The notes beneath the pieces were generated by a model that was not told the DNA's origin, made no database searches, and saw only the letters and a program-made list of their open reading frames with translations. A DNA stretch of 64,000 nt. Source: Odiellus spinosus. Lineage: Eukaryota; Arthropoda; Arachnida; Opiliones; Phalangiidae. The stretch covers positions 27,447,935 to 27,511,934 of the forward strand of contig OY987227.1 of the NCBI GenBank assembly GCA_963920705.1, given 5' to 3'. Below are positions 1,246 through 60,522 of the stretch, one piece after another. The translations under genes and the position numbers were made by a program. Numbering within the stretch: position 1 is the stretch's first letter; every line of letters begins with the position of its first letter.

Positions 1246-1252
1246 ATACCAG

Positions 1253-1588
1253 CAGAAGCCGATGAAACCCTCCTTTGAAGTCTACTACTCCAATGTTCCA
1301 TATAGCGCTCCTCTCTGTATGGGTAAAATTCCCAATTATACGAGTTAGAAAGGGTCCTACTTCATCCCCCCTGTCTACGGAAAATTGGAAATTCTCTCTC
1401 TCCACAAACGACGACGTTTTTTTGACGAACTCCGAGGCTGCTAGAGATATTCGCTCGACGAACTCCCGCTCCGAAAACCTTACCGTTAGGAGGCGTACGA
1501 ATCGCGCCTTTTGAGAATAACCCATACAGAGAGGGGTAGACAAGACCCGGGAGTAATAGACTTCAAAGGAGGGTTTCATCGGCTTCTG
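1253..1588 (+). mobile_element. MITE family A, copy 1 (336 bp)
   Basis: Non-autonomous DNA transposon with a near-perfect terminal inverted repeat (CAGAAGCCGATGAAACCCTC at the left end, its complement at the right) and an imperfect subterminal inverted repeat that reaches the CTCTCTGTATGGGT motif on both sides. It is flanked by an exact 7-bp duplication ATACCAG (1246-1252 and 1589-1595). It encodes no transposase. Short ORFs in it recur in the other copies only because the element is conserved. Confidence 0.93.
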
Positions 1589-1941
1589 ATACCAGTAACG
1601 AAAAGCCTAATTTCAGTTTATTTACGGAGAATGAAACTGGTCACCGAAAAATTCTTTTGGACTTTTTAAGCCGCGTTCGTACTATAACAAAAAAGAACAA
1701 CTGTTTTCTGGGAAAGATGTGGGGCTAGGCTCTTCTTTATATTCAGGAAATTAGATGAAATAATATATAAAACTGGTATTGGAATCATTTAACTTACCAC
1801 AAAACACGGCTATATAGTAGCTTACTACGCTAGAAAATAAATCCAAAAATAATACTCAATTTCCATTTGGAGTTTATGAAAACAACCCGAATGACTCCAC
1901 TTGAATGGTTTTACTACCTCAAATATATGTATATGACAAAC

Positions 1942-2280
1942 CAGAAGCCGATGAAACCCTCCTTTGAAGTCTACTACTCTAATGTTCCATATAGCGCGCC
2001 TCTTTGTATGGGTAAAATTCACGATTTTACGAGATCGGAGGGGTCCGACTTCATGCCCCCTGTCTACGGAAAATTGGAAATTCTCTCTCTCCACAAACGA
2101 CGACGTTTTTTTTTGACGAACTCCGAGGTTGCTAGAGATATTCGCTCGACGAACTCCCGCTCCGAAAATATCTACCATTAGGAGACGTACGAATCGCGCT
2201 TTTTGAAACTAACCCATACAGAGAGGGATAGACAAGACCAGGGAGTAATAGACTTCAAAGGAGGGTTTCATCGGCTTCTG
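1942..2280 (+). mobile_element. MITE family A, copy 2 (339 bp)
   Basis: Same termini and body as the copy at 1253, same orientation, only ~350 bp away. Flanked by an exact 7-bp duplication GACAAAC (1935-1941, 2281-2287). It differs from copy 1 by scattered substitutions and small indels, so the two are independent insertions rather than one local duplication: the target sites differ. Confidence 0.93.
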
Positions 2281-2287
2281 GACAAAC

Positions 2288-3129
2288 TAAAAGACTATAA
2301 TTTGCCCATCGTCGTCGTGGCTTTTTCGATACAATGCTATTTTAATTACCTTTGAAAATGAATCTTCGCTCGAAATGGTCACAATCGCGAGACTAGTCCT
2401 TTAATCCAAGCTAGAAGACAAAGGTGCTGGACGGAATAAGATTGGGAGGGAGTGGCACGCGGGAGTTGATCGTCGCAACGGTTTCCAGACCGCTTAATGA
2501 CTGAATAAATGTAAAAGCTTTTCTAAAGCTGAGAATTCCGCCGTCTCGTTTGGATGAAAGTTCTTGTTTTGATGATGCCCAACTAACGATAATTTGCCGG
2601 CTATAGGCTAAATTTCATCCGCTCTTAAACACTTCCAGCAAATTGGCCAAAACACTATTTCCTTATTGTTACAAAATAGGATTTAGAATGTGCCTGGCTG
2701 TGAAATGATGAAGGATGAAGTCTTGTTCGGACGAAGATTCAAATACATTCACCAATGTTTTGGTTGTTAATTAGCTATATAGAGCGGTATTTGAGACCAA
2801 AGAGTACTAAAACCAAAAGTCTATAACTTATTCCATGAAAGTAAACAATTCCCGTAGCTATAGGTCCAGGTGAATGTACCGGCAGATTCTGATTCGAGAC
2901 ACTCAGTGTAAATAGTGAAATCGGAAGCGCCACTCTTTGGAGTAATTCTGGAGTTAGGGGAAGACGTTACAGCCTAGCGCGGCCCGCCTAAATTCCGTCC
3001 ATCTCTTCAACACATTTGTAAATTAAAATACTAAAGCTAAGGGATGTTTTAATTAACTTATATTTAGTCTCTTCCAAGAGTGAGAGATATTTTTTTTTAG
3101 ATCAGACAATTTTCTCTGCATGATAATAA
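2288..3129. other. Unassigned DNA between MITEs A2 and B1
   Basis: Somewhat less AT-rich in 2,390-2,500 (AGGGAGTGGCACGCGGGAGT), with no usable frame or splice pair seen. Confidence 0.45.
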
Positions 3130-3136
3130 ATCTCAG

Positions 3137-3554
3137 AAGAGGTATATAATAACCCCCTTCGGGGGGAAGTATGAAAGGTAGGCAAAATCGACGAACAACG
3201 AGTGCGCGGCGTAAATCGCGGCGGATCGACACACCACTTTACTCCCAAAAAATAGTTACACCATTTTGAACCTCACTAAATTTTCCCTACGCGCGCTTCC
3301 GGAACTCGCGAGCTGAAGTCAACCTTCGACTCGATTTTAACAGACAGCCTGACTCCCGAGACAGGAAGTTCTAAACACAAATCGAGCCGTCTTGTTTATA
3401 CAAAGACCATTTACTAGAGTAGCGACATTGAGAAGTCCAGCGCGAGCTAGTGGCCTAGATAGTCAGCAGCGGGCTCTTGTTGTTCGTGATTTTTAGCATT
3501 GGTAGTATAGGGGCTTTCATACTTCCCCCTGAAGGGGGTTATTATATACCTCTG
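3137..3554 (+). mobile_element. MITE family B, copy 1 (418 bp)
   Basis: Foldback-ended element. The termini are (C)AGAGGTATATAATAACCCCC and its complement, followed inside by a CCCCCTTCGGGGGG hairpin and AAGTATGAAA. The 7-bp duplication is ATCTCAG (3130-3136, 3555-3561). The first base is A here rather than the C of the other copies. The interior is GC-richer than the surroundings and non-coding. Confidence 0.93.
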
Positions 3555-3561
3555 ATCTCAG

Positions 3562-5650
3562 CAAACTTAAGTTTAATTAAATTGAGTAGAATTTGATAAT
3601 TGCGCTAGATAGTTTAATCACGGAATTAAAACTATATTTGGTGTTAAATTTTTTATTAGATTAGGAGTTTTTTTATTCTTTTAATATAAATGAGCTCATT
3701 TACAAACACTTTTAAATTATAAATTGGAAGCTTTAATTAAACCTTCTGATACGCGAATATTTTCTTAGCACGAAAAAGCGTTAGCGCTGCCTTTTAATAA
3801 AATTTAATTGTGTTTTTGCGTGTGAGAAAATTATTTTGAAGAGAAAGAATTTAAAGTTTTGGAAAGTAAGTCTACCTTCACAATTTTTAGGAGCTGAGAA
3901 GGTAGATTAAGGCAGATTAAGGTAGAAAAGCTAATTAAACCAGCGAAATTATTTTAAAAAAATGGTAACTTAAAGGGGCTTACAAGGACTCGTTAAAAAA
4001 AATTGAAATATCAATTATGGTATAAATAATAATGTCGAATTTGACGTATACCTGATTTTCATTTTGAAGTTATAATATTAGAATCTATAATATCTCTATT
4101 TTTAATAATGAGATCCGTTCTTTAACGCTCCATATAAGAGTTATACTGCGAACGAGACTTATTTCCTATTCAAAACCCGGGTCGTTTTGGCGTGGCGGCC
4201 AACTTTATCGAGTAACCATCTAGAATTCCGTATCATTAAGTAAGGACAATTGTTCTAATTGCTCGAATCTCCTTACGCGTTATACCCTTCCCTTACCAGC
4301 CCCATTTTCTTAACAATGGGGCTATAGGGCTAGTATATGGGAATTGTAGAGGGTTGGTGTAGCTGGCGGTTGGGCGGGCGGGCGTGGCGTGGCGACGAAA
4401 GGATCGAGGGTCTAGCTATCACGAAACGCGTCCTCGTTAATCTTGATGATAAATTGCTAACATTTCGATACCAGAAATATATCGGCGTTTAAAAAGCGAG
4501 CTTTAATATAGCTTGTTCGGGGGCCCCTCTGTACCGACATCAACGAAGGGAATTTTTCTTCTTTTAAAAAATAAAAGGAGACACGATCATGCCGGCTCTT
4601 AATTTTCAAGTGGCGTCTAGCGTAAGACCGTCGCGCACCAACTAATTATAGGTTTGAGAAATTCATAAGGAAAAATACCAAGTACTTAGACTAGAGAGAT
4701 CGAGGTTTGGACCAGATAATCCACAAATATCAGTTAATCAGTTAAATTTTTCGATTCCATTGGATTTATCATAGACTTCCCGTGGATAATTTCAAATATC
4801 AGAAATATCTTCTCCAATCCTCGACCTCTATTTAAATCTAAATTCCTTCTTCGGTAAAATAAAATTTACTCGAATATGACGTTCTTTATAATGTAATTTA
4901 CGGAAAAACTGAGGCTTTCCCAAGCTTATATAGAGAGAAATTTGCGAAGTATAGACAGAATAAGATGGGAAAGGTACATCTGGACACCCCAATTCCATAA
5001 ATTTCATCGGTCCATAGCCATTTATAACCGCGAGTTGTCTCCGGTAAATACGCTAGAGTTTTAACTACGAAGCGCGTTTCGTTATTCCAATATATCTACC
5101 CTATCAACGCTATAACCGTCTCTTTCCGCCCCCCGGGCTACTAATTGAAAAATCCATAGTTTTCAATTTGTAAGCTCACGACGCCTATACGTATACCCGT
5201 TTATAACTAAGAGCGCGGGTTGGATCGAGCACTCATAACGAAGGATTCAATTTTCTCCGCCGCTGTTTACCGCCGAATAAGTTTTGGGAGGGAATCCAAT
5301 TGCCACCGTGAGCTTATTAGAATTTTCCGATATATATATTATACGTTCAGCCTATTAGTATCGTTTACGTTGAGGCTGTAAGTTATTTAAAGTTTGCGAA
5401 GTTTTGAAAGGCGTATTTATCTATTGGAAGTTCAAAGTTTCAGGGTCTTTTTTTCACATTTATATTTAAAATATAAAGCCGGGTTCAATTTATAAGAACG
5501 AAACGTTCGCACCACACGAATTATATTTTATTTTGTTCAGTCGTAGCGACAGCAATGTAAAATGTGCTCTATTCTAACAAATTTGCTGTTTTGTCAGGAA
5601 GTTTTTTGAGTGCTCCCAACTGTTATCCTTTTAGACCAAACTCTTATACG
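3562..5650. other. Unassigned AT-rich DNA around one family D copy
   Basis: Apart from the D element at 4,692-4,830, a short GGCGGGCGGGCGTGGCGTGG tract (~4,372-4,395) is the only compositional anomaly. No downstream Dscam exon was recognised here on the minus strand, although short exons without ATG would be easy to miss by eye. Confidence 0.4.
4692..4830. mobile_element. TA-flanked palindromic MITE (family D), diverged copy
   Basis: Small element whose ends are degenerate forms of TAGAGGTCGGGGTTTG and its complement CCTCGACCTCTA. The interior (AGATAATCCAC, CATTGGATTTATCATAGA, GTGGATAATTTC) matches the copy at 43025. The TA at each end fits a Tc1/mariner-like TA target, an inference from the boundary only. 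Confidence 0.7.
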
Positions 5651-5656
5651 TTTCTC

Positions 5657-6539: not shown

Positions 6540-6616
6540 CTGAAAAATTAAAGAAAACAATTTAATTACCACGAGTTTTTAAAACAAATAACGCGCTTTA
6601 AAAGCTAGGAGTTAGC

Positions 6617-6954
6617 AGAAGTAGATGAAACCCTCCTTTGAAGTCTACTACTCTAATGTTCGATATAGCGCGCCTCTCTGTATGGGTAAAATTCCCAATT
6701 TTACGAGATCGGAGAGGGGTCCTACTTCATCCCCCCTGTCTACGGAAAATTGGAAATTCTCTCTCTCCACAAACGACGACGGTTTTTTGACGAACTCCGA
6801 GGCTTCTAGAGATATTCGCTCGACGAACTCCCGCTCCGAAAATATCTACCGTTAGGAGGCGTACGAATCGCGCTTTTTAAAACTAACCCATACAGAGAGG
6901 GGTAGACAAGACCCGGGAGTAATAGACTTCAAAGGAGGGTTTCATCGGCTTCTG
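6617..6954 (+). mobile_element. MITE family A, copy 3 (338 bp)
   Basis: Family A element ~80 bp upstream of the Dscam exon acceptor, in the adjoining intron. The 7-bp duplication is GAGTTAG (6610-6616, 6955-6961). The left terminus has a changed base inside the repeat (CAGAAGTAGATG instead of CAGAAGCCGATG). Confidence 0.92.
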
Positions 6955-7346: not shown

Positions 7347-7362
7347 AATATCTGTCGAAACT

Positions 7363-7765
7363 GAGGCGAATTGCTTTAATCAGAAGCCGATAAAACCCTC
7401 CTTTGAAGTCTATTACTCCCGGGTCTTGTCTACCCCTCTCTGTATGGGTTAGTTTCAAAAAACGCGATTCGTACGCCTCCTAACGGTAGATATTTTCGGA
7501 GCGGGAGTTCGTCCAGCAAATATATCTAGCAGCCTCGGAGTTCGTCAAAAAAACGTCGTCGTTTGTGGAGAGAGAGAATTTCCAATTTTCCGTAGACAGG
7601 GGGGTATGAAGTAGGACTCCCTCCGATCTCGTAAAATTGTGAATTTTACTCATACAGAGAGGAGCGCTATATGGAACATTGGAGTAGTAGACTTCAAAGG
7701 AGGGTTTCATCGGCTTCTGCTTTAATACAATATTAAACTTCGTAGGGTCAAAGTAGTCGTTTCCA
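7363..7765. repeat. Dispersed repeat H, split by MITE A copy 4
   Basis: 7363-7380 (GAGGCGAATTGCTTTAAT) and 7727-7765 (ACAATATTAAACTTCGTAGG, then AAAGTAGTC) join across the MITE into a copy of the repeat seen at 11951 and 12055 (GGCGGATTGATATACAATG, TTAAAC, GTAGGAATTAAA). The parent element is unknown. Confidence 0.65.
7381..7719 (-). mobile_element. MITE family A, copy 4 (339 bp), inserted in repeat H
   Basis: Family A element in the opposite orientation to copy 1 (the CCCGGGTCTTGTCTACC side comes first). The 7-bp duplication is CTTTAAT (7374-7380, 7720-7726). The flanks join into a copy of dispersed repeat H once the element and one duplication are removed, which verifies the insertion boundaries independently. 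Confidence 0.94.
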
Positions 7766-8515: not shown

Positions 8516-8807
8516 CAAGAAGGATCAGATAAGGAGAGGAAAAGTGGGGCTGCGTTGAGTTAGAGAGAGAGGAGCCAACCTCCCACTCGGGTGGAAAGGG
8601 GGGATAGGAAATTCTCGAGGTAAACTGTTGTCACGTGGTCGCTAGCTAGCGCGTCTCATAAAGGATTCGTTTTACCCACGTGACAACAATTTACCACTAA
8701 GCAAATCTACCCCCGTCTGTCCCCCGTTCTCCCAGAGTGGGAGTTTAGGCCGACGCAGTAGAAGCCGAGCCGTTCCCACTTTTCCTCTCCTTATCTGATC
8801 CTTCTTG
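8516..8807 (+). mobile_element. MITE family C, copy 1 (292 bp)
   Basis: Foldback element with ends CAAGAAGGATCAGATAAGG and the complement. The internal arms pair across GTTGTCACGTGG / CCACGTGACAAC with a GCTAGCTAGC centre. Exact 7-bp duplication TTCGATT (8509-8515, 8808-8814). Non-coding. Confidence 0.93.
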
Positions 8808-8814
8808 TTCGATT

Positions 8815-10885: not shown

Positions 10886-10892
10886 ATTGTAT

Positions 10893-11310
10893 CAGAGGTA
10901 TATAATAACCCCCTTCGGGGGGAAGTATGAAAGGTAGGCAAAATCGACGAACAACGAGTGCCCGGCGTAAATCGCGGAGGATCGACACACCGCTTTACTC
11001 CCAAAAAATAGTTACACCATTTTGAAACTCACTAAATTTTCCCTACGCCCACTTCCGGAACTCGCGAACTGAAGTCAACCTTCGACTCGATTTTAACAGA
11101 CAGCCTGACTCCTGAGACAGGAAGTTCTAAACACAAATGAAGCCGTCTTGTTTATACAAAGACCATTTACTAGAGTAGCGACATTGAGAAGTCCAGCGCG
11201 AGCTAGTGGCCTAGATAGTCAGCAGCGGGCTCTTGTTGTTCGTGATTTTTAGCATTGCTAGTATAGGGGCTTTCATACTTCCCCCCGAAGGGGGTTATTA
11301 TATACCTCTG
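10893..11310 (+). mobile_element. MITE family B, copy 2 (418 bp)
   Basis: Same length and orientation as the copy at 3137, with few substitutions. Terminal CAGAGGTATA and its complement are intact. Exact 7-bp duplication ATTGTAT (10886-10892, 11311-11317). Confidence 0.94.
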
Positions 11311-15532: not shown

Positions 15533-15870
15533 CAGAAGCCGATGAAACCCTCCTTTGAAGTCTACTACTCTAATGTTCCATATAGCGTTCCTCTCTGTAT
15601 GGGTAAAATCCACAATTTTACGAGATCAGAGGGGTCCTACTTCATACCCCTCTGTCTACGGAAAATTGAAAATTCTCTCTCTCCACAAACGACGACGTTT
15701 TTTTGACGAGCTCCGAGGCTGCTAGAGATATTCGCTCGACGAACTCCCGCTCTGAAAATATCTACCGTTAGGAGGCGTACGAATCGCGCTTTTTGAAACT
15801 AACCCATACAGAGAGGGGTAGACAAGACCCGGGAGTAATAGACTTCAAAGGAGGGTTTCATCGGCTTCTG
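15533..15870 (+). mobile_element. MITE family A, copy 5 (338 bp)
   Basis: Family A element with both terminal repeats intact. The 7-bp duplication is ATTTTAC (15526-15532, 15871-15877). Same orientation as copy 1. Confidence 0.93.
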
Positions 15871-15877: not shown

Positions 15878-16652
15878 CCAAAATAACTAAATCGAGGAAA
15901 AAATCTGCTGTCCTGCCTCCTCCGTAAAAATAACCTTCTTAAAAATAAGACATTTGACCCGCCAATAAAAATCTATTTCGATTAGATAATATTTTCCCCG
16001 ATAATATCTCGAATCTGAAGACTCACTGTCTAGCGTAGGTAGAGCGAGGAAAAACTCTCTCTCTTCTCTCCGTGCCCGCAGCAATAGTCTTTGAAACCGT
16101 TTTGAATCTGATGTTCTTTAAATAATTCTTTAAGTGAAAAACATTCAGTTTAAAATTACGCGGAATAATGCGGAAAAAAGCCCATTTTGTAGCATTTTAA
16201 GATCGCTTGAGAATGTGTAATGGAAAAGCGCTATAGTTAAGTGTCAATTAAGGGTTTTATGAGTAACTTTCGTTTAGTCATAAGTATAATAATTAAATAT
16301 AACTATGCCATAAAGCCAATTTCCCCATAATAATGCATTTTGAGAACCTTTCCTATTACCGAGTACGTAACGGATCAGACCTTACGCGCGGATCATTCCC
16401 CATACAGTATAAGTGGGTATTTGCTACTGTACTGGGAAGTCTATGGAGTATAAGCGGACGACAGAACAATAAATTCACAATAGATGGAGCTTAATTGGCA
16501 TACTTAAGTTTAATTATTGTATTTATGGTTTAATAAAGAAGCAGTATATAATAATAATATAGTATTTTTAGTTTAATTTCGATACCTTTCAAATATCAAA
16601 ATTTTAAAGTAACCGTTCTAATTAGATGGAATAAACGTGCGAATTTTACCCA
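15878..16652. other. Unassigned AT-rich DNA
   Basis: A 65-codon minus-strand ORF at 15,887-16,084 is not recognised and lacks splice or start context. Confidence 0.45.
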
Positions 16653-17172
16653 GAAAACCTTTTTTCTGCTAGTTTCGTGACGCAGAAACCTTTTTTCCAC
16701 CAGTTTCGTCACGCGAATCCCTTTTTTCCACCAGTTTCGTCACGCAGAAACCTTTTTTTGGCAAGTTTTGTCACGCGAAACCATTTTTCTGCCAGTTTTC
16801 GTGACGCGAAACCCTTTTTTCTATCAGTTTTATCACGCAAAACCCTTTTTTCCACCAGTTTCGTCACGCGAAACCCTTTTTTCTATCAGTTTCATCACGC
16901 GAAACCCTTTTTTCTATCAGTTTCATCACGCGAAACCCTTTTTTCTATCAGTTTCATCACGCGAAACCCTTTTTTCTATCAATTTCATCACGCGAAACCC
17001 TTTTTTCTATCAGTTTTATCACGCAAAATCCTTTTTTCCACCAGTTTTCGTGACGCGAAACCTTTTTTCTATCAGTTTCATCACGCGAAACCCTTTTTTC
17101 TATCAGTTTCGTCACGCGAAACCCTTTTTTCTATCAGTTTCATCACGCGAAACCTTTTTTCTTCGCATTTCA
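16653..17172. repeat. 31-bp minisatellite (~17 units)
   Basis: Tandem units of the type GTTTCATCACGCGAAACCC plus a T6 run and CTATCA. The outer units are more diverged (CCACCA for CTATCA, GTGACG for TCACGC); the centre is nearly homogeneous. Each unit contains the small inverted repeat GTTTCG-nnnn-CGAAAC. Because 31 is not a multiple of three, the 145- and 169-codon ORFs cycle through three versions of the translation and are not credible genes. Confidence 0.95.
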
Positions 17173-18420
17173 TCACGAAAACTTGATACGTATCCTCTCT
17201 TTTAAGCATTTACCATTTATTAATCGAATCAAAACTTGTATCCTACAAAATCTACATCTTTCATTTAATAAATTTAAAAGTAAGATATTAGCTTAGCTTT
17301 AATCTAAAATTAAACTCGCTGTATGTGAAATTTGATCATTTTATAGTGAAAACACTAAAGAAAACTAATTTCCATAATGATTTTCAAAAGCGAGGTATAC
17401 GCTCTCCTTCTATTATTTTTATAATAAATATATTGCTAAATTGTAGCATCAAAAATTTTTCCTCGTCCATATACGAGGCTTATATTTTTACTTTCTTCAT
17501 TTTGCCTTCAACGTAATTGGGTTAAATTTAAGTTTGAGCTTAAAATTTAAGAACCTTGTGGAAGAAACATTTTATGGCGGGAGTTCAAGTAATTTAGCTC
17601 TTGGGGCGAAAAACGTTCCGTGTGTTTATGTTTTGGCGCGAAACCTCCCTCTCTAAAACTTCCAAAAAGGAGAGCCGAGAGTTTACTTAAAGGAATTGAA
17701 ATTGTACACGTTCTATCCTGGGGAATACTTTCCTCGAGAAGCCTGCAGGATACTCGGGCGCTGAATAGTTAACAATATAAACATTTCTTATAAAACTACT
17801 CTTTTTTTGGAAATGGAACGTTTTACCTAATTTTCTGGATGCATTTTAATTAAATTTAAATTCTTTTAAGTTTTAAAGTTGAGTGTGAGCTTTCATTATA
17901 CACATTGTATATCTGTTTTGGTGTTTTTAATTGTTAATTAACTCGTAACCTTAATTTGGTTAGAGTATATAAAAAAGTTATTTATTATGCCGCTTCGAGC
18001 GCGAAATTTGGCTCCGCACTAAGGATTATCGTAAAAATTCGTTTATGCTTAATATTAAGGTTTTGGAGTTTTAAAAACAAGTATACAATAGGGATTACTA
18101 ATTATTTTTTAAAAGTACATTGAAAGAGGGTTATTTAACTTAATGGTATTTAATTAATTATTTTATTAGCATAAATTTCAAAATTTACTTAATCACCAAT
18201 ATAAACAACTATAATAATTAAGGGTCCTCTTTAATAATATAATTTTATATAAACCAACCTTCAAGAATCATACGGCAATGCAATCGCGTCATTAAATAAT
18301 TAATTATATATTTTTTTTTTTTAAATATTACCGGGGAAATTATGGAACAGTTAGACACGAATAATTAAAGCTTAATTCATTATTGTCTAGCTAACATTTT
18401 TTTCGAGCCAGTTTTTTATT
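17173..18420. other. Unassigned, very AT-rich DNA
   Basis: Dominated by TTAATTA / AATTTAAA words and a T10-type run near 18,310. No supported feature. Confidence 0.5.
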
Positions 18421-21430: not shown

Positions 21431-21755
21431 CAGAAGCCGATGAAACCCTCCTTTGAAGTCTACTACTCCAATGTTCCATATAGCGCTCCTCTCTGTATGG
21501 GTAAAATTCCCAATTTTACGAGTTAGAAGGGGTCCTACTTCATCGGAAAATTGGAAATTCTCTCTCTCCACAAACGACGACGTTTTTTGGACGAACTTCG
21601 AGGCTGCTAGAGATATTCGCTGGACGAACTCCCGCTCCGAAAATATCTACCGTTAGGAGGCGTACGAATCGCGCTTTTTGAAACTAACCCATACAGAGAG
21701 GGGTAGACAAGACCAGGGAGTAATAGACTTCAAAGCAGGGTTTCATCGGCTTCTG
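21431..21755 (+). mobile_element. MITE family A, copy 6 (325 bp)
   Basis: Family A element with an internal deletion of about 12-13 bp compared with the others, in the block following the GGGTCCTACTTCATC motif. The 7-bp duplication is CATTTAC (21424-21430, 21756-21762). The right terminus carries one substitution (CAAAGCAGGG for CAAAGGAGGG). Confidence 0.93.
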
Positions 21756-22399: not shown

Positions 22400-22830
22400 T
22401 TAAAGGGAGAATGCAACCTAATTACAAGTGATTTTTTATCGATTCCTTATCGTTGAAATAGGCCTAATCCATCGATAAAAAGTTTACAATACAAATATTA
22501 AACTAGAAATAAATTTAAAACTTACCCTGAAAATAGGCTTAGCGGGATTCACGGAGATCCTGAATCGCGTCCGTGTAAGGTCTAGCGACCAATGAGCGAA
22601 GGCCCGTCGTTCGCGCGAGATCTCTACGAGACTTACGTCGCGCGCGATTGGTCGCTAGACCTTACACGCGAGGAAATCAGGAGCTCCATGAATCCCACTA
22701 AGCCTATTTTCAGGGTAAGTTTTAAATTTATTTCTAGTTTAATATTTGTTTCTAAATTTTTTTAATAGTGAATTAGGCCTACTTAAACAATAAGGAATCG
22801 ATAAGTTGTTAGGTTGCATCCTCCCTTTAA
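22400..22830. mobile_element. TTAA-flanked foldback MITE (family E), 431 bp
   Basis: Begins TTAA-AGGGAGAATGCAACC and ends GGTTGCATCCTCCCT-TTAA. The two arms (~190 bp each) are inverted copies of one another, including the shared blocks AAACTTACCCTGAAAATAGG and GTAAGGTCTAGCGACCAAT, around a GC-rich CpG-dense centre (~22,595-22,640). A TTAA target duplication is characteristic of the piggyBac superfamily (also Kolobok). The superfamily call is inference since no transposase is present. Confidence 0.85.
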
Positions 22831-26100: not shown

Positions 26101-26438
26101 CAGAAGCCGATGAAACCCTCCTTTGAAGTCTATTACTCCCGGGTCTTGTCTACCCCTCTCTGTATGGGTTATTCTCAAAAAGGCGTGATTCGTACGCCTC
26201 CTAACGGTAGATGTTTTCGGAGCGGGAGCTCGTCGAGCGAATATCTCTAGCAGCCTCGGAGTTCGTCCAAAAAACGTCGTCGTTTGTGGAGAGAGAGAAT
26301 TTCCAATTTTCCGTAGACAGGGGGGATGAAGTAGGACCCCTTCTAACTCGTAAAATTGGGAATTTTACCCATACAGAGAGGAGCGCTATATGGAACATTA
26401 GAGTAGTAGACTTCAAAGGAGGGTTTCATCGGCTTCTG
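26101..26438 (-). mobile_element. MITE family A, copy 7 (338 bp)
   Basis: Family A element in reverse orientation with intact termini. The flanks GTATAAC and ACGTAAC agree at only the last four positions, so the duplication has decayed, or the flank was changed after insertion. This is the only family A copy without a readable 7-bp duplication. Confidence 0.9.
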
Positions 26439-27476: not shown

Positions 27477-27768
27477 CAAGAAGGATCAGATAAGGAGGGG
27501 AAAAGTGGGAACGGCGCGGCTCCTACTGCGTCGGCCTAAACTCCCACTCTGGGAGAACGGGGGACAGACGGGGTTAGAGTTGCTTCGTGGTAAATTGTTG
27601 TCACGTGGGTAAAACGAATCCTTTATGAGACGCGCTAGCTAGCGACCACGTGACAACAGTTTACCTCGAGAATTTCCTATCCCCCCTTTCCACCCGAGTG
27701 GGAGGTTGGCTCTTCTCTCTCTAACTCAACGCAGCCCCACTTTTCCTCTCCTTATCTAATCCTTCTTG
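27477..27768 (-). mobile_element. MITE family C, copy 2 (292 bp)
   Basis: Inverted copy, same length as the other two, nearly identical. Exact 7-bp duplication GCTATAT (27470-27476, 27769-27775). Confidence 0.94.
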
Positions 27769-37268: not shown

Positions 37269-37560
37269 CAAGAAGGGTCAGATAAGGAGAGGAAAAGTGG
37301 GGCTGCGTTGAGTTAGAGAGAGAAGAGCCAACCTCCCACTCGGGTGGAAAGGGGGGATAGGAAATTCTCGAGGTAAACTGTTGTCACGTGGTCGCTAGCT
37401 AGCGCGTCTCATTAAGGATTCGTTTTACCCACGTGACAACAATTTACCACGAAGCATCTCTACCCCCGTCTGTCCCCCGTTCTCCCAGAGTGGGAGTTTA
37501 GGCCGACGCAGTAGGAGCCGCGCCGTTCCCACTTTTCCTCTCCTTATCTGATCCTTCTTG
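37269..37560 (+). mobile_element. MITE family C, copy 3 (292 bp)
   Basis: Same orientation as copy 1. One substitution in the left terminus (AAGGGTCAG for AAGGATCAG). Exact 7-bp duplication GTCCTAT (37262-37268, 37561-37567). Very low divergence between the three copies suggests recent spread. Confidence 0.94.
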
Positions 37561-45569: not shown

Positions 45570-45906
45570 CAGAATCCGATGAAACCCTCCTTTGAAGTCT
45601 ATTACTCCCGGGTCTTGTCTACCCCTCTCTGTATGGGTTATTCTCAAAAGGCGCGATTCGTACGCCTCCTAACGGTAGATGTTTTCGGAGCGGGAGCTCG
45701 TCGAGCGAATATCTCTAGCAGCCTCGGAGTTAGTCAAAAAAACGTCGTCGTTTGTGGAGAGAGAGAATTTCCAATTTTCCGTAGACAGGGGGGATGAAGT
45801 AGGACCCCTTCTAACTCGTAAAATTGGGAATTTTACCCATACAGAGAGGAGCGCTATATCGAACATTGGAGTAGTAGACTTCAAAGGAGGGTTTCATCGG
45901 CTTCTG
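45570..45906 (-). mobile_element. MITE family A, copy 8 (337 bp)
   Basis: Reverse-oriented family A element. The left terminus has one change (CAGAATCCGATG). Exact 7-bp duplication TTATTAT (45563-45569, 45907-45913). Confidence 0.93.
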
Positions 45907-47071: not shown

Positions 47072-47489
47072 CAGAGGTGTATAATAACCCCCTTCGGGGG
47101 GAAGTATGAAAGCCCCTATACTACCAATGCTAAAAATCACGAACAACGAGAGCCCGCTGCTGACTATCTAGGCCACTAGCTCGCGCTGGACTTCTCAATG
47201 TCGCTACTCTAGTAAATGGTCTTTGTATAAACAAGACGGCTCGATTTGTGTTTGGAACTTCCTGTCTCGGGAGTCAGGCTGTCTGTTAAAATGAAGTCGA
47301 AGGTTGACTTCGGCTCGCGAGTTCCGGAAGTGTGCGTAGGGAAAATTTAGTGAGGTTCAAAATGGTGTAACTATTTTTTGGGAGTAAAGCGGTGTGTCGA
47401 TCCGCCGCGATTTACGCCGGGCACTCGTTGTTCGTCGATTTTGCCTACCTTTCATACTTCCCCCCGAAGGGGGTTATTATATACCTCTG
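47072..47489 (-). mobile_element. MITE family B, copy 3 (418 bp)
   Basis: Inverted copy with the same 418-bp length. The flanking 7-mers ATGTTAC (47065-47071) and ATATTAC (47490-47496) differ by one base. A 60-codon ORF overlapping its right end is an artefact of the repeat. Confidence 0.93.
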
Positions 47490-50358: not shown

Positions 50359-50671
50359 GACACACGTATTACACGCGATAAATAATTCGGTCCAGTCCCG
50401 ATGGGCGACTCCTTAATAACTTAAGACGGGGGCAACCGAATAAAAGTCGAAGTACATATACTATACATTCTTACCACCCAATTCCCCAATTCCCTTCGAC
50501 TCTTCAACCGTGAAAGGGAGTCTGAAAAGGAAATTAGACCTTGAAACAAAACTCCCAACTAGTTACTCCGAACTTTTAGCTTTTTAGAAGAAACTGTAAC
50601 AGATAATATGTTGGTAAGTTAACTTTACCCAGTTATACTGACTCTAGTAGATTATGTATACTGGCTTCATT

Positions 50672-51055
50672 GGGTCAGATGTACTCGCTCCTTTTGGGTC
50701 AGATGTACTCGCTCCTTTTGGGTCAGATGTACTCGCTCCTTTTGGGTCAGATGTACTCGCTCCTTTTGGGTCAGATGTACTCGCTCCTTTTGGGTCAGAT
50801 GTACTCGCTCCTTTTGGGTCAGATACGCTCGCTCCTTTTGGGTCAGATACGCTCGCTCCTTTTGGGTCAGATACGCTCGCTCCTTTTGGGTCAGATACGC
50901 TCGCTCCTTTTGGGTCAGATACGCTCGCTCCTTTTGGGTCAGATACGCTCGCTCCTTTTGGGTCAGATACGCTCGCTCCTTTTGGGTCAGATACGCTCGC
51001 TCCTTTTGGGTCAGATACGCTCGCTCCTTTTGGGTCAGATACGCTCGTTTCTTTG
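50672..51055. repeat. 24-bp minisatellite, 16 units in two subtypes
   Basis: Unit GGGTCAGATRYRCTCGCTCC plus TTTT. The first six units read GATGTACTCG and the next ten GATACGCTCG, with a clean switch at ~50,816; the last unit is altered (TCGTTTCTTTGG). Each subtype is internally homogeneous, indicating separate local expansions. 24 is a multiple of three, so four frames stay open through the array; they are not evidence of a gene. Confidence 0.95.
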
Positions 51056-53020
51056 GCGAAACCCCGCGCACCCCGAATATTATCCGTTTCACCCTTCCTT
51101 AAAGACGAAGACTGAAATTTAAGCCTCTCATCCCTCCATCCCCCGCACGCATCCTCCCTCGTCATCCCGCAACCATCTCTTCTTATTTCTCCTTCGGCCA
51201 GAAGTAATTAAACTTCGCTCATTTATTTACGCTTCAATGCTATACGAAATCTTTTTTACACCACCAACCCCCTTTTCCGACGACTATAAGGCTCCAAAGA
51301 CCAGTCATTCGGAAGAGGGGAAAAAAGAAAAAGGGAGAAAGATTCGAAGGATGGAGAAAAAAATCAGTATAGAGCGAGGGAGGATCTATAGGAACGACCA
51401 AATCCTATTGGGCGTTTAAAAAAAATTAAGCTTTAGCCACAGCCGCGCGCTTGTTGCACTGAATTCGGCTTTTTATTTTTTGGAACTTTTTTTTTATCCT
51501 TGGACTTAACTATGCTTCTGGCAATGCCAGTGTGTGTGTGTGATTGTGGAAAGAGAGAGACTGTTTTAAGCCCCTTTTCTAAAAGATCCTAGGGGGCCCC
51601 GGGCGAGGTTGCGAAGCTCGGCTGTATACCCATACGCGAGAAATCACGGGAACCCTTTTTAACATCATTTACTCTAAAGATACCTTCACAAACGCTTTTA
51701 AACCAATTACCATGACCACGATTTTCCATCAATATGGAAGAAACCATTTTTTAAGATTTTTCATTAAAGGGAGAATGCAACCTAATAACTGAATTTTTAT
51801 CGTTTCCTTTTTACCCAATACCATGGACAACAGTAAATTTACAATTTATAAATAAGTTCTAATGAGTCTTGGCACTGGCACTGACATTGTGAGTCCATTA
51901 TTTCCTTATGTACTGTTACGTAAGATCCTTCTCAATTTCGTTTTTTTAGTGTGACGTCTTTCAATTCATTTCCTAGAATTCGTGTTCAGCGCGAAAATCT
52001 CTCTAAACTGATCTATTTTCCAGATTTGGCATCAAAATTGCCTGAATTGACCTTCGACCTAAAACGAGTATACGTGTGAAGGCGCATTAAGGTCTAAATA
52101 AGATTGGGAGACTTAGGTGAGGTAGAGAAGAGGGTGGAATTTCGTCGACTGATTTCTTTTTTTAGCCTTTTAATCAGCTTTAAAGCTGAAGATTCCTTTT
52201 TCCCGATTTTTAACGGTCGCCAAATGGCTTCCAAAAAAAAAAAAAAAATGGCAAGGATTGAGAAAGTCTCGTATTTAGCTTTTTTTGCTGTTTCTTGTAA
52301 AGGATTTTAAGGTTCAATTTAAGCTTTTATTCTGGTACCCTTATTTGACGTGAATTGATTTTTGGCAAGGATAAAACCGTGGTCTTATAAGGCTTTCCTG
52401 ACTTAAGAAATAATATTTTAAAATATTTGCAACTGGCGTGTACCCGAGAGGGCGTAACTCTTGAATTCGTTGTATACCTAAGGTCATCGAGTTCAGATTT
52501 GACAGTGCATTGGGTTCAAACTCTCGTGAAGTTCTTTGACCCTTCCCCTATAGCAAAAAATGTTTGCAAAAATAGGTATTCGGAGAACCCGGTAGGGTTC
52601 TTACGTTATGGGCTGATCATCATTTGTAATGCTATTTTGATTTCCTAAAAAATTCAGCCTCTAGCCAATCAAAACGCTCCATTTTCCCATAGAAATAACA
52701 TTAAAATCGACTTTTTCGAGGACATGTCTGTTCCGGGGCATAACTTATCGAAATAATCATTTGTTACAGTTGAAACTAATTTTAAATGAAAGATTAAAGT
52801 TCGAATGTGTGCCTTTTCTAAGTTTCATTTAAAAATATTAAGTCTAAGTATTTTAAAATTAATTCTGAAATTGACCCTTTTTTTGGTACTTAGCTGGTTT
52901 CGCGCATGGCCAAATTCGTAATGTTATTCTATGGGATTTAGTTTTTTGAAAGTAGCTTACCTTTAAGATTTATTTTCTAATACTTCCAGATATTTTTGAA
53001 ACTTGGATTTTCCGTGTGGT
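51056..53020. other. Unassigned DNA between minisatellites
   Basis: Contains a family E fragment (51,764), a GTGTGTGTGTG run at ~51,531 and an A14-type run at ~52,236. ORFs of 60-73 codons are not recognised. Confidence 0.45.
51764..51830. mobile_element. Family E terminal fragment
   Basis: Starts TTAAAGGGAGAATGCAACC, identical to the left end of the element at 22400, then TTTTTATCGTTTCC. Similarity is lost after ~65 bp. Confidence 0.6.
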
Positions 53021-53183
53021 AATGGGGAAAATATAATGATTTTACTGCGGTTGTCGGAGGTATTAACATCAAAATTGATGAAAAAATTCATTTAAATTTG
53101 GTTTAAAGGGCAATGGGGAAAATATAATGATTTCGCTGCGGCTGTCGGAGGTATTAACATCAAAATTGATGAAAAAATTAATT
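53021..53183. repeat. Two ~90-bp direct repeats left of the 12-bp array
   Basis: 53,021-53,110 and 53,111-53,183 share AATGGGGAAAATATAATGAT, CTGCGGYTGTCGGAGG and TATTAACATCAAAATTGATG. The second copy runs straight into the 12-bp array. Confidence 0.85.
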
Positions 53184-56136
53184 GAAACGAGGACCGAAAC
53201 GAGGACGAGGACCGAAACGAGGACCGAAACGAGGACCGAAACGAGGACCGAAAGGAGGACCGAAAGGAGGACCGAAAGGAGGACCGAAAGGAGGCCCGAA
53301 AGGAGGCCCGAAAGGAGGCCCGAAAGGAGGCCCGAAAGGAGGCCCGAAAGGAGGACCGAATCGAGGACCGAATCGAGGACCGAATCGAGGACCGAATCGA
53401 GGACCGAATCGAGGACCGAATCGAGGACCGAATCGAGGACCGAATCGAGGACCGAAAGGAGGCCCGAAAGGAGGCCCGAAAGGAGGCCCGAAAGGAGGAC
53501 CGAAAGGAGGACCGAAAGGAGGACCGAAAGGAGGACCGAAAGGAGGACCGAAAGGAGGACCGAAAGGAGGACCGAAAGGAGGACCGAAAGGAGGACCGAA
53601 AGGAGGACCGAAAGGAGGACCGAAAGGAGGACCGAAAGGAGGACCGAAAGGAGGCCCGAAAGGAGGACCGAAAGGAGGACCGAAAGGAGGACCGAAAGGA
53701 GGACCGAATCGAGGACCGAATCGAGGACCGAATCGAGGACCGAATCGAGGACCGAATCGAGGACCGAATCGAGGACCGAATCGAGGACCGAATCGAGGAC
53801 CGAATCGAGGACCGAATCGAGGACCGAATCGAGGACCGAATCGAGGACCGAATCGAGGACCGAATCGAGGACCGAATCGAGGACCGAATCGAGGACCGAA
53901 TCGAGGACCGAATCGAGGACCGAATCGAGGACCGAATCGAGGACCGAATCGAGGACCGAATCGAGGACCGAATCGAGGACCGAATCGAGGACCGAATCGA
54001 GGACCGAATCGAGGACCGAATCGAGGACCGAATCGAGGACCGAATCGAGGACCGAATCGAGGACCGAATCGAGGACCGAATCGAGGACCGAATCGAGGAC
54101 CGAATCGAGGACCGAATCGAGGACCGAATCGAGGACCGAATCGAGGACCGAATCGAGGACCGAATCGAGGACCGAATCGAGGACCGAATCGAGGACCGAA
54201 TCGAGGACCGAATCGAGGACCGAATCGAGGACCGAATCGAGGACCGAATCGAGGACCGAATCGAGGACCGAATCGAGGACCGAATCGAGGACCGAATCGA
54301 GGACCGAATCGAGGACCGAATCGAGGACCGAATCGAGGACCGAATCGAGGACCGAATCGAGGACCGAATCGAGGACCGAATCGAGGACCGAATCGAGGAC
54401 CGAATCGAGGACCGAATCGAGGACCGAATCGAGGACCGAATCGAGGACCGAATCGAGGACCGAATCGAGGACCGAATCGAGGACCGAATCGAGGACCGAA
54501 TCGAGGACCGAATCGAGGACCGAATCGAGGACCGAATCGAGGACCGAATCGAGGACCGAATCGAGGACCGAATCGAGGACCGAATCGAGGACCGAATCGA
54601 GGACCGAATCGAGGACCGAATCGAGGACCGAATCGAGGACCGAATCGAGGACCGAATCGAGGACCGAATCGAGGACCGAATCGAGGACCGAATCGAGGAC
54701 CGAATCGAGGACCGAATCGAGGACCGAATCGAGGACCGAATCGAGGACCGAATCGAGGACCGAATCGAGGACCGAATCGAGGACCGAATCGAGGACCGAA
54801 TCGAGGACCGAATCGAGGACCGAATCGAGGACCGAATCGAGGACCGAATCGAGGACCGAATCGAGGACCGAATCGAGGACCGAATCGAGGACCGAATCGA
54901 GGACCGAATCGAGGACCGAATCGAGGACCGAATCGAGGACCGAATCGAGGACCGAATCGAGGACCGAATCGAGGACCGAATCGAGGACCGAATCGAGGAC
55001 CGAATCGAGGACCGAATCGAGGACCGAATCGAGGACCGAATCGAGGACCGAATCGAGGACCGAATCGAGGACCGAATCGAGGACCGAATCGAGGACCGAA
55101 TCGAGGACCGAATCGAGGACCGAATCGAGGACCGAATCGAGGACCGAATCGAGGACCGAATCGAGGACCGAATCGAGGACCGAATCGAGGACCGAATCGA
55201 GGACCGAATCGAGGACCGAATCGAGGACCGAATCGAGGACCGAATCGAGGACCGAATCGAGGACCGAATCGAGGACCGAATCGAGGACCGAATCGAGGAC
55301 CGAATCGAGGACCGAATCGAGGACCGAATCGAGGACCGAATCGAGGACCGAATCGAGGACCGAATCGAGGACCGAATCGAGGACCGAATCGAGGACCGAA
55401 TCGAGGACCGAATCGAGGACCGAATCGAGGACCGAATCGAGGACCGAATCGAGGACCGAATCGAGGACCGAATCGAGGACCGAATCGAGGACCGAATCGA
55501 GGACCGAATCGAGGACCGAATCGAGGACCGAATCGAGGACCGAATCGAGGACCGAATCGAGGACCGAATCGAGGACCGAATCGAGGACCGAATCGAGGAC
55601 CGAATCGAGGACCGAATCGAGGACCGAATCGAGGACCGAATCGAGGACCGAATCGAGGACCGAATCGAGGACCGAATCGAGGACCGAATCGAGGACCGAA
55701 TCGAGGACCGAATCGAGGACCGAATCGAGGACCGAATCGAGGACCGAATCGAGGACCGAATCGAGGACCGAATCGAGGACCGAATCGAGGACCGAATCGA
55801 GGACCGAATCGAGGACCGAATCGAGGACCGAATCGAGGACCGAATCGAGGACCGAATCGAGGACCGAATCGAGGACCGAATCGAGGACCGAATCGAGGAC
55901 CGAATCGAGGACCGAATCGAGGACCGAATCGAGGACCGAATCGAGGACCGAATCGAGGACCGAATCGAGGACCGAATCGAGGACCGAATCGAGGACCGAA
56001 TCGAGGACCGAATCGAGGACCGAATCGAGGACCGAATCGAGGACCGAATCGAGGACCGAATCGAGGACCGAATCGAGGACCGAATCGAGGACCGAATCGA
56101 GGACCGAATCGAGGACCGAATCGAGGACCGAAAGGA
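53184..56136. repeat. ~2.95-kb minisatellite of a 12-bp unit (~245 units)
   Basis: Unit GGACCGAATCGA with variants GGACCGAAACGA, GGACCGAAAGGA and GGCCCGAAAGGA. Order: ~5 AACGA units (one with a 6-bp irregularity), a block of AAGGA units, 8 AATCGA units (53,353-53,448), another AAGGA block to 53,700, then ~202 AATCGA units without a visible difference to ~56,124, and one AAGGA unit at the end. No unit contains a stop in four frames, which creates ORFs of about 1000 codons on both strands. These have repeat-only translations and no supporting signals. Confidence 0.97.
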
Positions 56137-56284
56137 GCTATTAACATCAAAAATTATGAAAAAATTAATTTTAATTGGGTTTAAAGGGCAATGGTAAAAA
56201 TGTAGAGATCTGACTGAATCAAGTGAGGCTGCCCCAGCTATTAACATCAAAAATTATGAAAAAATTAATTTTAATTGAAGTTTA
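56137..56284. repeat. Two related direct repeats right of the 12-bp array
   Basis: Two copies of CTATTAACATCAAAAATTATG / AAAAAATTAATTTTAATTG separated by GGGTTTAAAGGGCAATGG. They are homologous to the repeats on the left side, so the 12-bp array expanded inside a four-copy ~90-bp tandem repeat. Confidence 0.82.
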
Positions 56285-56300
56285 CAATAAAACGTAAGAC

Positions 56301-56460
56301 TGAAGGAACAGATATTATATCAAAAATGTCTTTGCGAACAAAGACCCAGAAGGACACGTTATGATTTCGGAAGGCTGAAGCGACAGATATTATATCAAAA
56401 ATGTCTTTGTGAACAAAGACCCAGAAAGATATGTTATGATTTCAGATGGCTGAAGGGACA
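56301..56460. repeat. Two-copy ~82-bp direct repeat at the edge of the inverted repeat
   Basis: GAACAGATATTATATCAAAA, ATGTCTTTG, GAACAAAGACCCAGAA and TTATGATTTC occur twice in tandem (from 56,307 and from 56,380), with substitutions. The second copy is the outer end of the left arm of the large inverted repeat. Confidence 0.8.
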
Positions 56461-57820
56461 GATATGTTAAATTTTCTTTTAAAACGTAAAATTTAATTTT
56501 AATCGCAATCTGTCAGGATTTAGAGTCTAATTTCAAAACAACTGATTTTATTCACTCGCAAATATTTAAGAAAAACATAACAGGCGATTTTCTCCCATTG
56601 ACCCTTAACATTAAATTTGGCTTAATTATTTTTCAGGGATTACGTGTCAGCCGAAATAAAACTTTTCGTTCGATAGAAAAGGTTGGGTATTCTAACTTTC
56701 GAATTAGTCGTAAATTCATTCACCGAGATTTAAGTATATTTCAGACACATTTTTTTATTCTTACTTTGAATTACTATTCGTTAAAGACTACACGCTATCC
56801 CGAAACCAGAGATTACTCAACGTCGTTGTTTCAAAGGCCATATCTGCTCTAGAATGGGTACTATTAAAAAGCTCTTTATTTATGTCCTCGATATGTAAAC
56901 AAACCAAGGTTGCGAGATATTTGGCTTTAAAGGGGCTATACGCTAATCATGGATACTTTCTTTAACTATATGTATTTCGATAATTAATATTCTTAAATTT
57001 GTAATTGACGAATACTCGAATACCGACCTTGAAATTCCGTTAAAACTACTTAAATAAATAATGTTTTATTATAACTCCTCGACTTTAGTCGAGGCAATAC
57101 GTTCATATTGCATTATGCGTGCTGAAATAAGGAGTTTATACGGAATAAAAATTCGCTGTATTTTAGTCCCAATTTAGGTTGCGGATTTCCAAAACCAAAA
57201 TCCTTATGTATTTAGGTTTTAGCGCTAGAAAGTGATCTCTTTCAAGGGAATCATAAAAGAAAAATAACTACGAATAATTTAAAAGGCTTATCTTTTCTGA
57301 AATTTGCCTCCTTTAAAATCCTCATTTGACTGCTCAATGCTCAATTTGTTACGGTCAACGTCGTCTGCTAAGCTAGAAAACATGGTGAGTACAAAGGGGC
57401 TTTAAAAAACGCAAATAGTCCCTATAAGATACACATTCTTATAAACCGGCGAGCATTTTTAACGATCTGTTGAAGTACGAGTCGTGACAATTTGGGGTTA
57501 AAAAAAGTGAACTCACATTATACTAAAAAAAAAAAAAAAAAAAAAAAAAAACAATTCAATACACGTTTTCCCTGAAAAATAATTAAGCCAAATTTAATGT
57601 TAAGGGTCAATGGGAGAAAATCGCCTGTTATGTTTTTTTTCTTAAATATTTGCGAGTGAATAAAATCAGTTGTTTTGAAATTAGACTCTAAATCCTGTCA
57701 GATTGCGATTATAATTAAATTTTACGTTTTAAAAGAAAATTTAACATAACTGTCCCTTCAGCCATCTAAAATCATAACAGATCTTTCTGGGTCTTTGTTC
57801 ACAAAGACATTTTTGATATA
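56391..57820. repeat. Large inverted repeat: ~250-bp arms, ~930-bp spacer
   Basis: Left arm 56,391-56,639 and right arm 57,569-57,820 are inverted copies, for example TTTGGCTTAATTATTTTTCA on the left and its complement on the right. A few substitutions and small indels separate them. The spacer holds a run of 27 A at 57,525-57,551 and short unconvincing ORFs. It may be a foldback transposon or a duplication-inversion. Transcription through it would give a long hairpin RNA. No target duplication was identified. Confidence 0.85.
57525..57551. repeat. A27 homopolymer
   Basis: 27 consecutive A in the spacer of the large inverted repeat. It could be the tail of a small retroposed sequence, but no body or target duplication was recognised. 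Confidence 0.85.
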
Positions 57821-59362
57821 ATTGAAAATTGGGACGGCTTGTTTATATTGTCTTCACGCTCAACATCGAAAGTGTCTCGAATCAGTTGTTTACTTTATTG
57901 GAATAAGGTTATAGACTTTTGGTGTTACGCGTAATATCCTTTGAAAGTAACTAAATCGCGTGTAAATTCATTTTTTTGGTAGCAAATGTAGTCTTTTCCA
58001 AGTTAGTAAGCTATAGTATTATCTACGTGTCTATATAGCGGCATTTTCTCCGGGCAAATCTGGAATACAAATTAGTTGGGCAATGGTACACGACACACAA
58101 ATATCTACTTTGACTAAACCTCTCGCAATTTCAGTCTTTTTGTTTCTTTTTTGAGATCCAAAATTGGACCGATATCTTCTCTTCACCTTTATTTTTGGGG
58201 TTTTTCTTTTTTTTTCTCGCCCCCGGTCGACTTTTAACGCGATACGTGACTCGGATACGAAGCGAGGGGTTAGGAATATTCCTCTTTTCTTTATTTTTTA
58301 TTCGGTGGTCTTTGTCTTTGTCTTTTAGGAAACGTGGTAGAGGAGTCGGAACACGGGTAGGGTTTAGGAGGATGGTAAGAATTGGCATTCCCTTTTTTTT
58401 TTTGTTTCGCTTACGGTGATTGAACCCGCATACATCAGGAGTTCTTCCGCCTGATATTCCAGCGTACCGAGCAAAAAGACCACGCTAAAAATAAAAGAAA
58501 CAAGAACTAGCACGCAGAGAGAATATTTCAATGGAGTAGAATGTTTCCTCTTGGCATTTTATTCGCTTTATATTGAAAGCAAAATTTTGGAGGGAAGAGA
58601 CCAAGAAATATGGTGAGAAATGGGTCAAGTTCTTTTAAATCGGCACTTAAAATTCTTATTAGGATCGGACTAATTTACTAGCCACTATCGTCTGGACAAA
58701 ATTGACTAAAAAAGCTAAGTTTATGAACTGCTAAAAATGTTCCGAACCTTTCAATTTATGTCGAATTAATTCGGCAGTCAATTTTGTCCAGAAACTTTGA
58801 GTTTCAGTAGCTCTGAAAATTAGCATTTTAATTTGGTCTTCAGTATCTTGCTTGGATATTTTGTTTTTCTTGCTAAAATCAAAAGTTACGACATTCAGAC
58901 ATTCAGAAGATATGTCCTTTATGACAATTGTTTTAGGCGACATTTATGAGCTTGATTTTATTTCTGGTGTTTGGTTAGATATGAATTTAATTGAAGGAAA
59001 AAACGAACCAATAATATTAATCCAACCACCCGCAGTACTAATTTTATCGAATTTCTTGAAAACCTCCATAAGATGGAGAGAGAGAGATTTCGTTCGAAAA
59101 TGATTGGAACCTTAACTGTTGAAGGCTGGGCTGTTAAATTAATCTGATTTGACAATTGACCATGTACCTTAAACGGACGAGCAGAACAGTAGCTTCCACT
59201 GTATTTAATTACCTCGCTTTCCTTCAAAGATTCTCCCTCGGGTGTGAGACAACTAGGAGAAAAAAATAGGAAGCTAGTGAGCTTTCAAGTTCAAATTAAC
59301 TCCAAAAAAAAACGAGAGGCACCGAGAAAAAAATTGTTCAAAAATGTCTAGGGTTGATATTG
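57821..59362. other. Unassigned DNA with a broken minus-strand frame
   Basis: On the minus strand a 41-codon ORF (ATG at 59,069) and a 70-codon ORF (ATG at 58,943) lie in the same frame, separated only by one TAA (58,946-58,944). This could be a decayed coding segment or chance. No family recognised. Confidence 0.35.
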
Positions 59363-59369
59363 GAATAAT

Positions 59370-59706
59370 CAGAAGCCGATGAAACCCTCCTTTGAAGTCT
59401 ACTACTCCAATGTTCGATATAGCGCTCCTCTCTGTATGGGTAAAATTCCCAATTTTACGAGTTAGAAGGGGTCCTACTTCATCCCCCCTGTCTACGGAAA
59501 ATTGGAAATTCTCTCTCTCCACAAACGACGACGTTATTTGGACGAACTCCGAGGCTGCTAGAGATATTCGCTCGACGAGCTCTCGCTCCGAAAACATCTA
59601 CCGTTAGGAGGCGTACGAATCGCGCCTTTTGAGAATAACCCATACAGAGAGAGGTAGACAAGACCCGGGAGTAATAGACTTCAAAGGAGGGTTTCATCGG
59701 CTTCTG
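59370..59706 (+). mobile_element. MITE family A, copy 9 (337 bp)
   Basis: Family A element with intact termini. The flanking 7-mers GAATAAT (59363-59369) and GAATAGT (59707-59713) differ at one base, consistent with a slightly older insertion. Confidence 0.92.
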
Positions 59707-60522
59707 GAATAGTTTAGTAGAACTTTGTTTAGTCCGTGCGTCTTTTGTTTTGTTATATTTAAATCTGGTAAGTTTCTACTCCATTCATACGTATACTCTG
59801 TAGAGGAAAAGCTAGAAAAAGGAGAAGAGGTTTTGGTTGGTTGTGCAGAGGGGTGTAAGAGAACTTAATGTATACCGTGTGGCGCGCATCTGTAGGAACT
59901 CGGATCAATTTTGCTTCCATCATAGAGTGACTGGCTAACGTTGGTGACAATCCCTCGGGAATTCGGGCCCACGCTTTCAATGGATCGCCTCGCCTACCGT
60001 TCTCGGAAAACGAATCAAAAACTATATACGGCCAAAACTACAGAGCGGATGGAGTAAAAAAGTAAAAAAGAAATAGCCATGTAAATAATATAAATACGCT
60101 AGCTAGTTTGTTTTCCTATGAACTTTAACATTGTAGATCAATACGCGTTAGTTTCTCTCGTTATGTCGACTCATCTTTTACCTAGATTTATGAAACTCTT
60201 AGGGGGGGGGGGAGAATTGTTCTTTTTAGCCTTGTAAGTTCCTCCTCTATCTTAGAAGCGATAGAGTGAGAGTTTTTGGGACGAATGGATAATCATTATG
60301 ATGTCATTACGCTTATCGCTGACTTCCCGCGTTTGATCTATAAATAGATTTAAGTCATTGAGCGGATAATAATAGAAGCTATCGAAGATCGGTTTTCAAT
60401 AACAACGGAATGCGCGATTGGAAACGCCCCTTTAATACGATAGAAGGGGGATTTTAAAATTATTCGCATTGTTTTGGAAAATGATTTTTAGCTCCAATTT
60501 CCCTTTAAACTAAAAATTATTA

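Follow-up and report, generated by a model that had tools for sequence, protein, structure and literature searches.

A 64,000 nucleotide (nt) stretch of the Odiellus spinosus genome (contig OY987227.1, positions 27,447,935–27,511,934 of the forward strand, here termed the window) contains fifteen copies of three families of miniature inverted-repeat transposable elements (MITEs), designated A, B and C. These are very probably non-coding cut-and-paste MITEs of the P superfamily, moved in trans by P transposases that cut the target with a 7-bp stagger. The three families display the same 7-bp target duplication and share a palindromic target, and P elements found in this genome (443 Mb in 286 contigs) carry a duplication of the same length at similar sites.

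Family A is approximately 337 bp in length with a terminal inverted repeat (TIR) of about 32 bp, family B is 418 bp with a TIR of about 41 bp, and family C is 292 bp with a TIR of about 33 bp. The interiors of A, B and C are unrelated and the TIRs differ between families. All three have the properties of MITEs, i.e. they are short (292–418 bp), non-coding, present in high copy number, and bounded by TIRs of 32–41 bp and a target duplication. Elements of the P superfamily have CA...TG ends, and the termini of the three families (CAGAAGCC, CAGAGGTA and CAAGAAGG) are of this type. An earlier reading of the window made from its sequence alone (the sequence-only reading) had described fifteen copies with unrelated interiors, nine of A, three of B and three of C, fourteen of them with a 7-bp duplication. 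The copies were found at the positions it gave, with TIRs. The duplication is exact in twelve and has one mismatch in two, and the remaining copy, at 26101–26438, has three mismatches. The fifteen copies, by window position and strand, are as follows.

1253–1588, + strand: MITE A copy 1, exact duplication ATACCAG at 1246–1252 and 1589–1595
1942–2280, + strand: MITE A copy 2, exact duplication GACAAAC
6616–6954, + strand: MITE A copy 3, left TIR mutated, exact duplication GAGTTAG
7381–7719, − strand: MITE A copy 4, exact duplication CTTTAAT
15533–15870, + strand: MITE A copy 5, exact duplication ATTTTAC
21431–21755, + strand: MITE A copy 6, exact duplication CATTTAC
26101–26438, − strand: MITE A copy 7, flanks GTATAAC and ACGTAAC with three mismatches, without a clean duplication
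45570–45906, − strand: MITE A copy 8, exact duplication TTATTAT
59370–59706, + strand: MITE A copy 9, duplication GAATAAT and GAATAGT, one mismatch
3137–3554, + strand: MITE B copy 1, first base mutated, exact duplication ATCTCAG
10893–11310, + strand: MITE B copy 2, exact duplication ATTGTAT
47072–47489, − strand: MITE B copy 3, duplication ATGTTAC and ATATTAC, one mismatch
8516–8807, + strand: MITE C copy 1, exact duplication TTCGATT
27477–27768, − strand: MITE C copy 2, exact duplication GCTATAT
37269–37560, + strand: MITE C copy 3, exact duplication GTCCTAT

The length of the duplication was tabulated over more copies, as the sequence-only reading had proposed. The sample consists of the window and the fetched loci L001–L068. 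These gave 106 BLAST matches; once 13 that lacked full length and four duplicates had been removed, 89 distinct copies remained in which both ends and flanks are present (48 of A, 34 of B and 7 of C), and of these the window supplies 15. For A and B, the loci fetched were the 30 best-scoring matches per family, and thus the sample is biased to well-preserved copies of these two families. An exact 7-bp duplication is present in 71 of the 89 copies. No copy has an exact duplication of 3, 5, 6 or 8–12 bp, one has 4 bp and nine have 2 bp; the 8-bp majority that would have pointed away from a 7-bp mechanism is not seen. When flanks of different copies were paired as a control, only 12 of 7832 pairs were identical at 7 bp. 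A duplication of 7 or 8 bp is consistent with the P superfamily; here 71 of 89 copies are exact at 7 and none at 8. Mean divergence from the family consensus is 2.2% for A (48 copies), 0.7% for B (34) and 4.0% for C (7).

In the whole genome the exact 18-bp terminus of A is found at 9730 + 9813 places and the exact 19-bp terminus of B at 1816 + 1791 places, the reversed control sequences being found at none. Since one terminus is counted per strand and copy, there are near ten thousand copies of A and near eighteen hundred of B. The target motif followed by a terminus of C, with at most one mismatch, is found at 194 + 180 places (control 0). Among 100 listed C termini, a sample which is selected for the target motif, 84 form 42 left/right pairs and 16 are unpaired; the 7-bp flanks are identical in 41 of the 42 pairs.

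The consensus of the 71 exact sites is R T W W W A Y in the duplication, with a T three bases before it and an A three bases after it. The preferred target is thus a 13-bp palindrome, TnnRTWWWAYnnA, which is longer than the duplication; this is seen in A and B, and in C on six sites only. A palindrome of the GT...AC type that extends past the duplication is also a property of P superfamily targets. Four key positions were scored, i.e. T at −3, T at 2, A at 6 and A at +3. In that order they are occupied in 32, 33, 33 and 27 of 41 sites of A, in 20, 19, 22 and 21 of 24 sites of B, and in 5, 5, 4 and 5 of 6 sites of C. Enrichment is found in A and B separately, and C shows the same direction (p is 0.013 for three of the positions and 0.079 for the remaining one). 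All four positions together are present in 28 of the 71 sites, as compared with 1.1% of window positions. The insertion sites are dispersed and AT-rich.

P transposases are abundant in this genome: there are 386 candidates genome-wide for the P RNase H domain (PF21787), and all 150 that were scored exceed the Pfam cut-off. Two open reading frames were compared with solved structures, and both match the P transposase 6p5a (E-values 3.3e-21 and 5.4e-19). Eight pieces of P-type proteins were searched against the translated window and gave no match. Three P families have definable ends. In Tp801 (C8:12671397–12675173), an open frame of 801 residues encodes THAP, RNase H and GTP-binding insertion domains and the TIR is CGGTGCCTCC; four of four copies show exact 7-bp duplications (GTTTTAC, TTTGAAG, ATTATAC and ATACAGA). 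Tp856 (C2:30618905–30624574) has the TIR CATAGACTAAGAAC and the exact duplication GTCTGTC (one of one), and P626 (C17:8098425–8104149) the TIR CATGGACTCTAAATC and the exact duplication ACTACAC (one of one). Thus six of six P insertions are exact at 7 bp (four Tp801, one Tp856, one P626), a count from which three further Tp856 copies, viewed at the left end only, are excluded. The six sites agree with the MITE motif at 18 of 24 key positions (p about 1e-5 if 31% is expected per position). The P-type lead of the sequence-only reading fits these results. The ends of these P elements start with CATAG and CATGG in two families and with CGGTG in one. Ends were also sought in the P loci L069 and L070 and in the L089/L075 stretch, and none could be defined there.

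Short sequences related to the ends of two of these families were also observed. Within Tp856 (L072, positions 3504–3575) are two small palindromes of Tp856 end sequence, the second of which is flanked by TTCTTAC on both sides and is possibly a minimal element consisting of two ends only. The first ~144 bp of the P626 left end have ten short matches that are 76–77% identical, e.g. at C11:6775699 and C13:5864753; these are possible P626-derived short elements.

Movement of A, B and C by P transposases is our inference, and the reaction is proposed, step by step, on the same footing. A P transposase would recognise the family-specific TIRs that begin with CA and would then excise the element. 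The excised MITE would insert at the palindrome TnnRTWWWAYnnA, where the target would be cut with a 7-base stagger, as published for 1360 and Galileo, and gap filling would give the 7-bp duplication. Because the three TIRs differ, each MITE family probably uses its own P family, which would perhaps be extinct or unsampled. The proposal in the sequence-only reading of one transposase superfamily behind the three families is therefore supported at the level of the superfamily, by the same length, the palindromic target and the like behavior of the P elements, and does not extend to one single transposase.

The 7-bp length and the GT..AC-type palindrome of A, B and C point to the side of the P superfamily represented in Drosophila by Galileo and 1360, the latter also called Hoppel/PROTOP. 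Published values given here and below are from excerpts of the papers cited. The P element itself makes an 8-bp duplication, whereas 1360 makes one of 7 bp (98.21% modal) at the palindromic GT..AC target GTTNAAC (PMC3276498). The likeness of the MITEs to 1360 is drawn from the duplication and the target. Around the target, 1360 and P tend to ANAGT..ACTNT (PMC4168063), unlike the MITEs, which have T (left) and A (right) three positions outside the duplication. Galileo likewise has a mostly 7-bp duplication, the target GTATTAC and a palindrome longer than the duplication, however its outer flanks are AANGT..ACNTT (PMC4168063) as compared with TnnRT..AYnnA here. In addition, its TIRs are long and internally repeated and its non-autonomous copies average 1.7–2.2 kb, in contrast to TIRs of 32–41 bp and lengths of 292–418 bp in the MITEs of O. 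spinosus. The P-MITEs of Anopheles gambiae are similarly short and non-coding, are attributed to P transposases and outnumber their masters (PMC1562414). They differ in having 8-bp duplications, 44–571 copies and identified masters, whereas here the duplication is 7 bp, family A is far more numerous and masters were not found in 34 P loci, most of them viewed in part. A root-knot nematode is described as having an unclassified inverted-repeat element of 936 bp whose duplications are 7 bp (PMC3169594).

Several observations weigh against the assignment of A, B and C to P transposases, and the missing parent is its main weakness. The sequence-only reading had proposed a search for autonomous elements with the same ends, and this succeeded only in part: P transposases are plentiful, but none of 34 P loci checked (in sets of 3, 4, 12, 10 and 5) is itself bounded by an A, B or C terminus, 27 of them being viewed over 0.7–1.4 kb on the 5′ side, two of these also over 1.4 kb on the 3′ side. 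The parent may be extinct; alternatively, it may belong to the remaining P loci or lie beyond the segments viewed. In a list of 100 of the 3607 exact B termini, all 100 on C1, there are no two unpaired ends in facing orientation at a distance of 1.5–8 kb. Forty pairs in this list are less than 600 bp apart, i.e. MITE-sized, and one unpaired end, at C1:1900648, is 2.7 kb from an end that already has a nearer partner, the stretch between them being unread. In the 34 loci the sole A terminus that bounds a P gene belongs to an A MITE which hosts P626. A near-A terminus at C17:13606505 (L111) has no inverted partner in the genome at one mismatch or less and was dropped. Finally, hAT transposase domains are abundant too, with 220 candidates for the dimerisation domain PF05699 (counted by domain only).

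L070 and L071 contain B-like matches (4 mismatches of 19) at the same place in two copies of one P gene; these were taken as chance.

The A terminus that bounds P626 had been considered as a parent of family A at C17:8098387, where the left 40 bp of A precede the P gene and A positions 32–336 follow it. This candidate was rejected. The match to three other copies of P626 begins only at query positions 37–39, past the A bases, and the P626 ends proper (CATGGACTC...) are flanked by the exact ACTACAC duplication. Thus P626 was inserted into an A MITE, and the region C17:8098387–8104457 (L088, L074 and L114) is a nest of P626 in an A-family element. P-type activity is therefore later than that A insertion. 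The A copy that hosts P626 is without a matching duplication of its own (GGCAATT and GTTACAT). A further A-like right end lies at C17:8104740, 283 bp past the nest.

That A, B and C owe their movement to an unusual hAT branch whose transposases cut with a 7-bp stagger is unlikely, although a number of the 220 hAT candidates lie in long open frames. MITEs of the hAT type have CAG-type ends, and the ends CAGAAGCC and CAGAGGTA resemble hAT ends, which counts for such an origin. The hAT element hobo also has a target, GTNCGNAC, with the same GT..AC frame as the MITE targets, yet its duplication is 8 bp in 99.83% of insertions (PMC3276498), whereas none of the 89 MITE copies is exact at 8 bp and six of six P insertions of the same genome are at 7 bp. 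It is quite unlikely that the 7-bp marks come from another superfamily, or that each family had a parent of a different superfamily and shares the length by chance. The lack of a parent among the 34 mostly partial P loci is in accord with such an origin, but the four-position motif is common to the MITE families (strongly in A and B, weakly in C with its six sites) and to the P elements of this genome.

The sequence-only reading had also named Dada-type elements, whose published duplications are 6–7 bp in the excerpts available. As described there, however, Dada-U6 and Dada-U1 are without TIRs and all Dada elements with clear ends are in small-RNA genes. A, B and C have TIRs of 32–41 bp and lie at dispersed AT-rich sites, and a search of the window with Rfam at gathering scores found no RNA gene. 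Movement by Dada-type elements is thus extremely improbable, and this lead does not fit.

The P element is a one-gene transposon. In P626 and Tp856, however, open frames on the strand opposite to the transposase (putative exons) lie within the TIRs and form a second gene that points towards the transposase gene.

C17:8102266–8103756, strand opposite to the transposase: second-gene frames of P626 (L074/L114)
C2:30622601–30623796, strand opposite to the transposase: second-gene frames of Tp856 (L072/L115)

The two predicted proteins are related (36% identity over 73 residues, E-value 3e-12). A Pfam search of both gave no match over the cut-off, and the structural model of the second-gene protein is of low confidence (mean pLDDT 49.4). 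Searched against the genome, part of the second protein of P626 gave 49 matches, which merge to 42 places. At 25 of these the second gene is convergent with a P RNase H match within 4 kb, at one it is divergent and at none is it on the same strand; the other 16 are without a P match nearby among the 150 of 386 P candidates listed.

The transposase frames of P626 and Tp856 end soon after the C-terminal part of the RNase H domain, and in L070 the same strand continues, as judged by eye. On one reading the second protein may represent a C-terminus that has been split from the transposase. Profile comparison of the second gene with the same-strand stretch beside the P gene of L102 was not significant (1.5% probability), and BLAST found no match between the second gene and the C-terminal piece in L070. 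The idea of a relocated C-terminus therefore draws on the layout and on a short RGGL-type motif seen by eye. We tentatively suggest, at somewhat less than even odds, that a whole branch of the P transposons here consists of two-gene elements, in which a transposase that ends just after the C-terminal part of RNase H and a convergent second gene on the opposite strand, conserved between divergent families, share one TIR pair and a 7-bp duplication. The product of the second gene may be the split-off C-terminus, or else a factor with an accessory role, and the 7-bp MITEs may be moved by such elements. The location of the second gene inside P626 and Tp856 and the convergent layout at 25 of 42 places support this suggestion. 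Literature searches aimed at a second gene or open reading frame in P elements found no description of one, which is weak evidence of absence.

Other repeats are also present in the window. At 53069–56197 there is an array of about 3 kb of a 12-bp unit that is open in several frames on both strands and is satellite-like, not gene-like. Repeated translations inside open frames at 50607–51122 and 16635–17205 are probably tandem repeats. Other inverted repeats are found at 56389–57822 and 22436–22804; one has arms of 187 bp spaced by about 1.06 kb, and one has arms of 158 bp spaced by 53 bp.

The duplication length together with the target motif can place orphan MITEs in a superfamily where no parent is visible. 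In the excerpts of published work consulted, the 7-bp side of the P superfamily is described in Drosophila, and the MITEs of O. spinosus point to that side. Family A is present in roughly ten thousand copies, as compared with the hundreds given for Anopheles P-MITEs in the excerpted paper. Two-gene P elements, if confirmed, would change the one-gene picture of the P element and would raise a testable question about the second protein.

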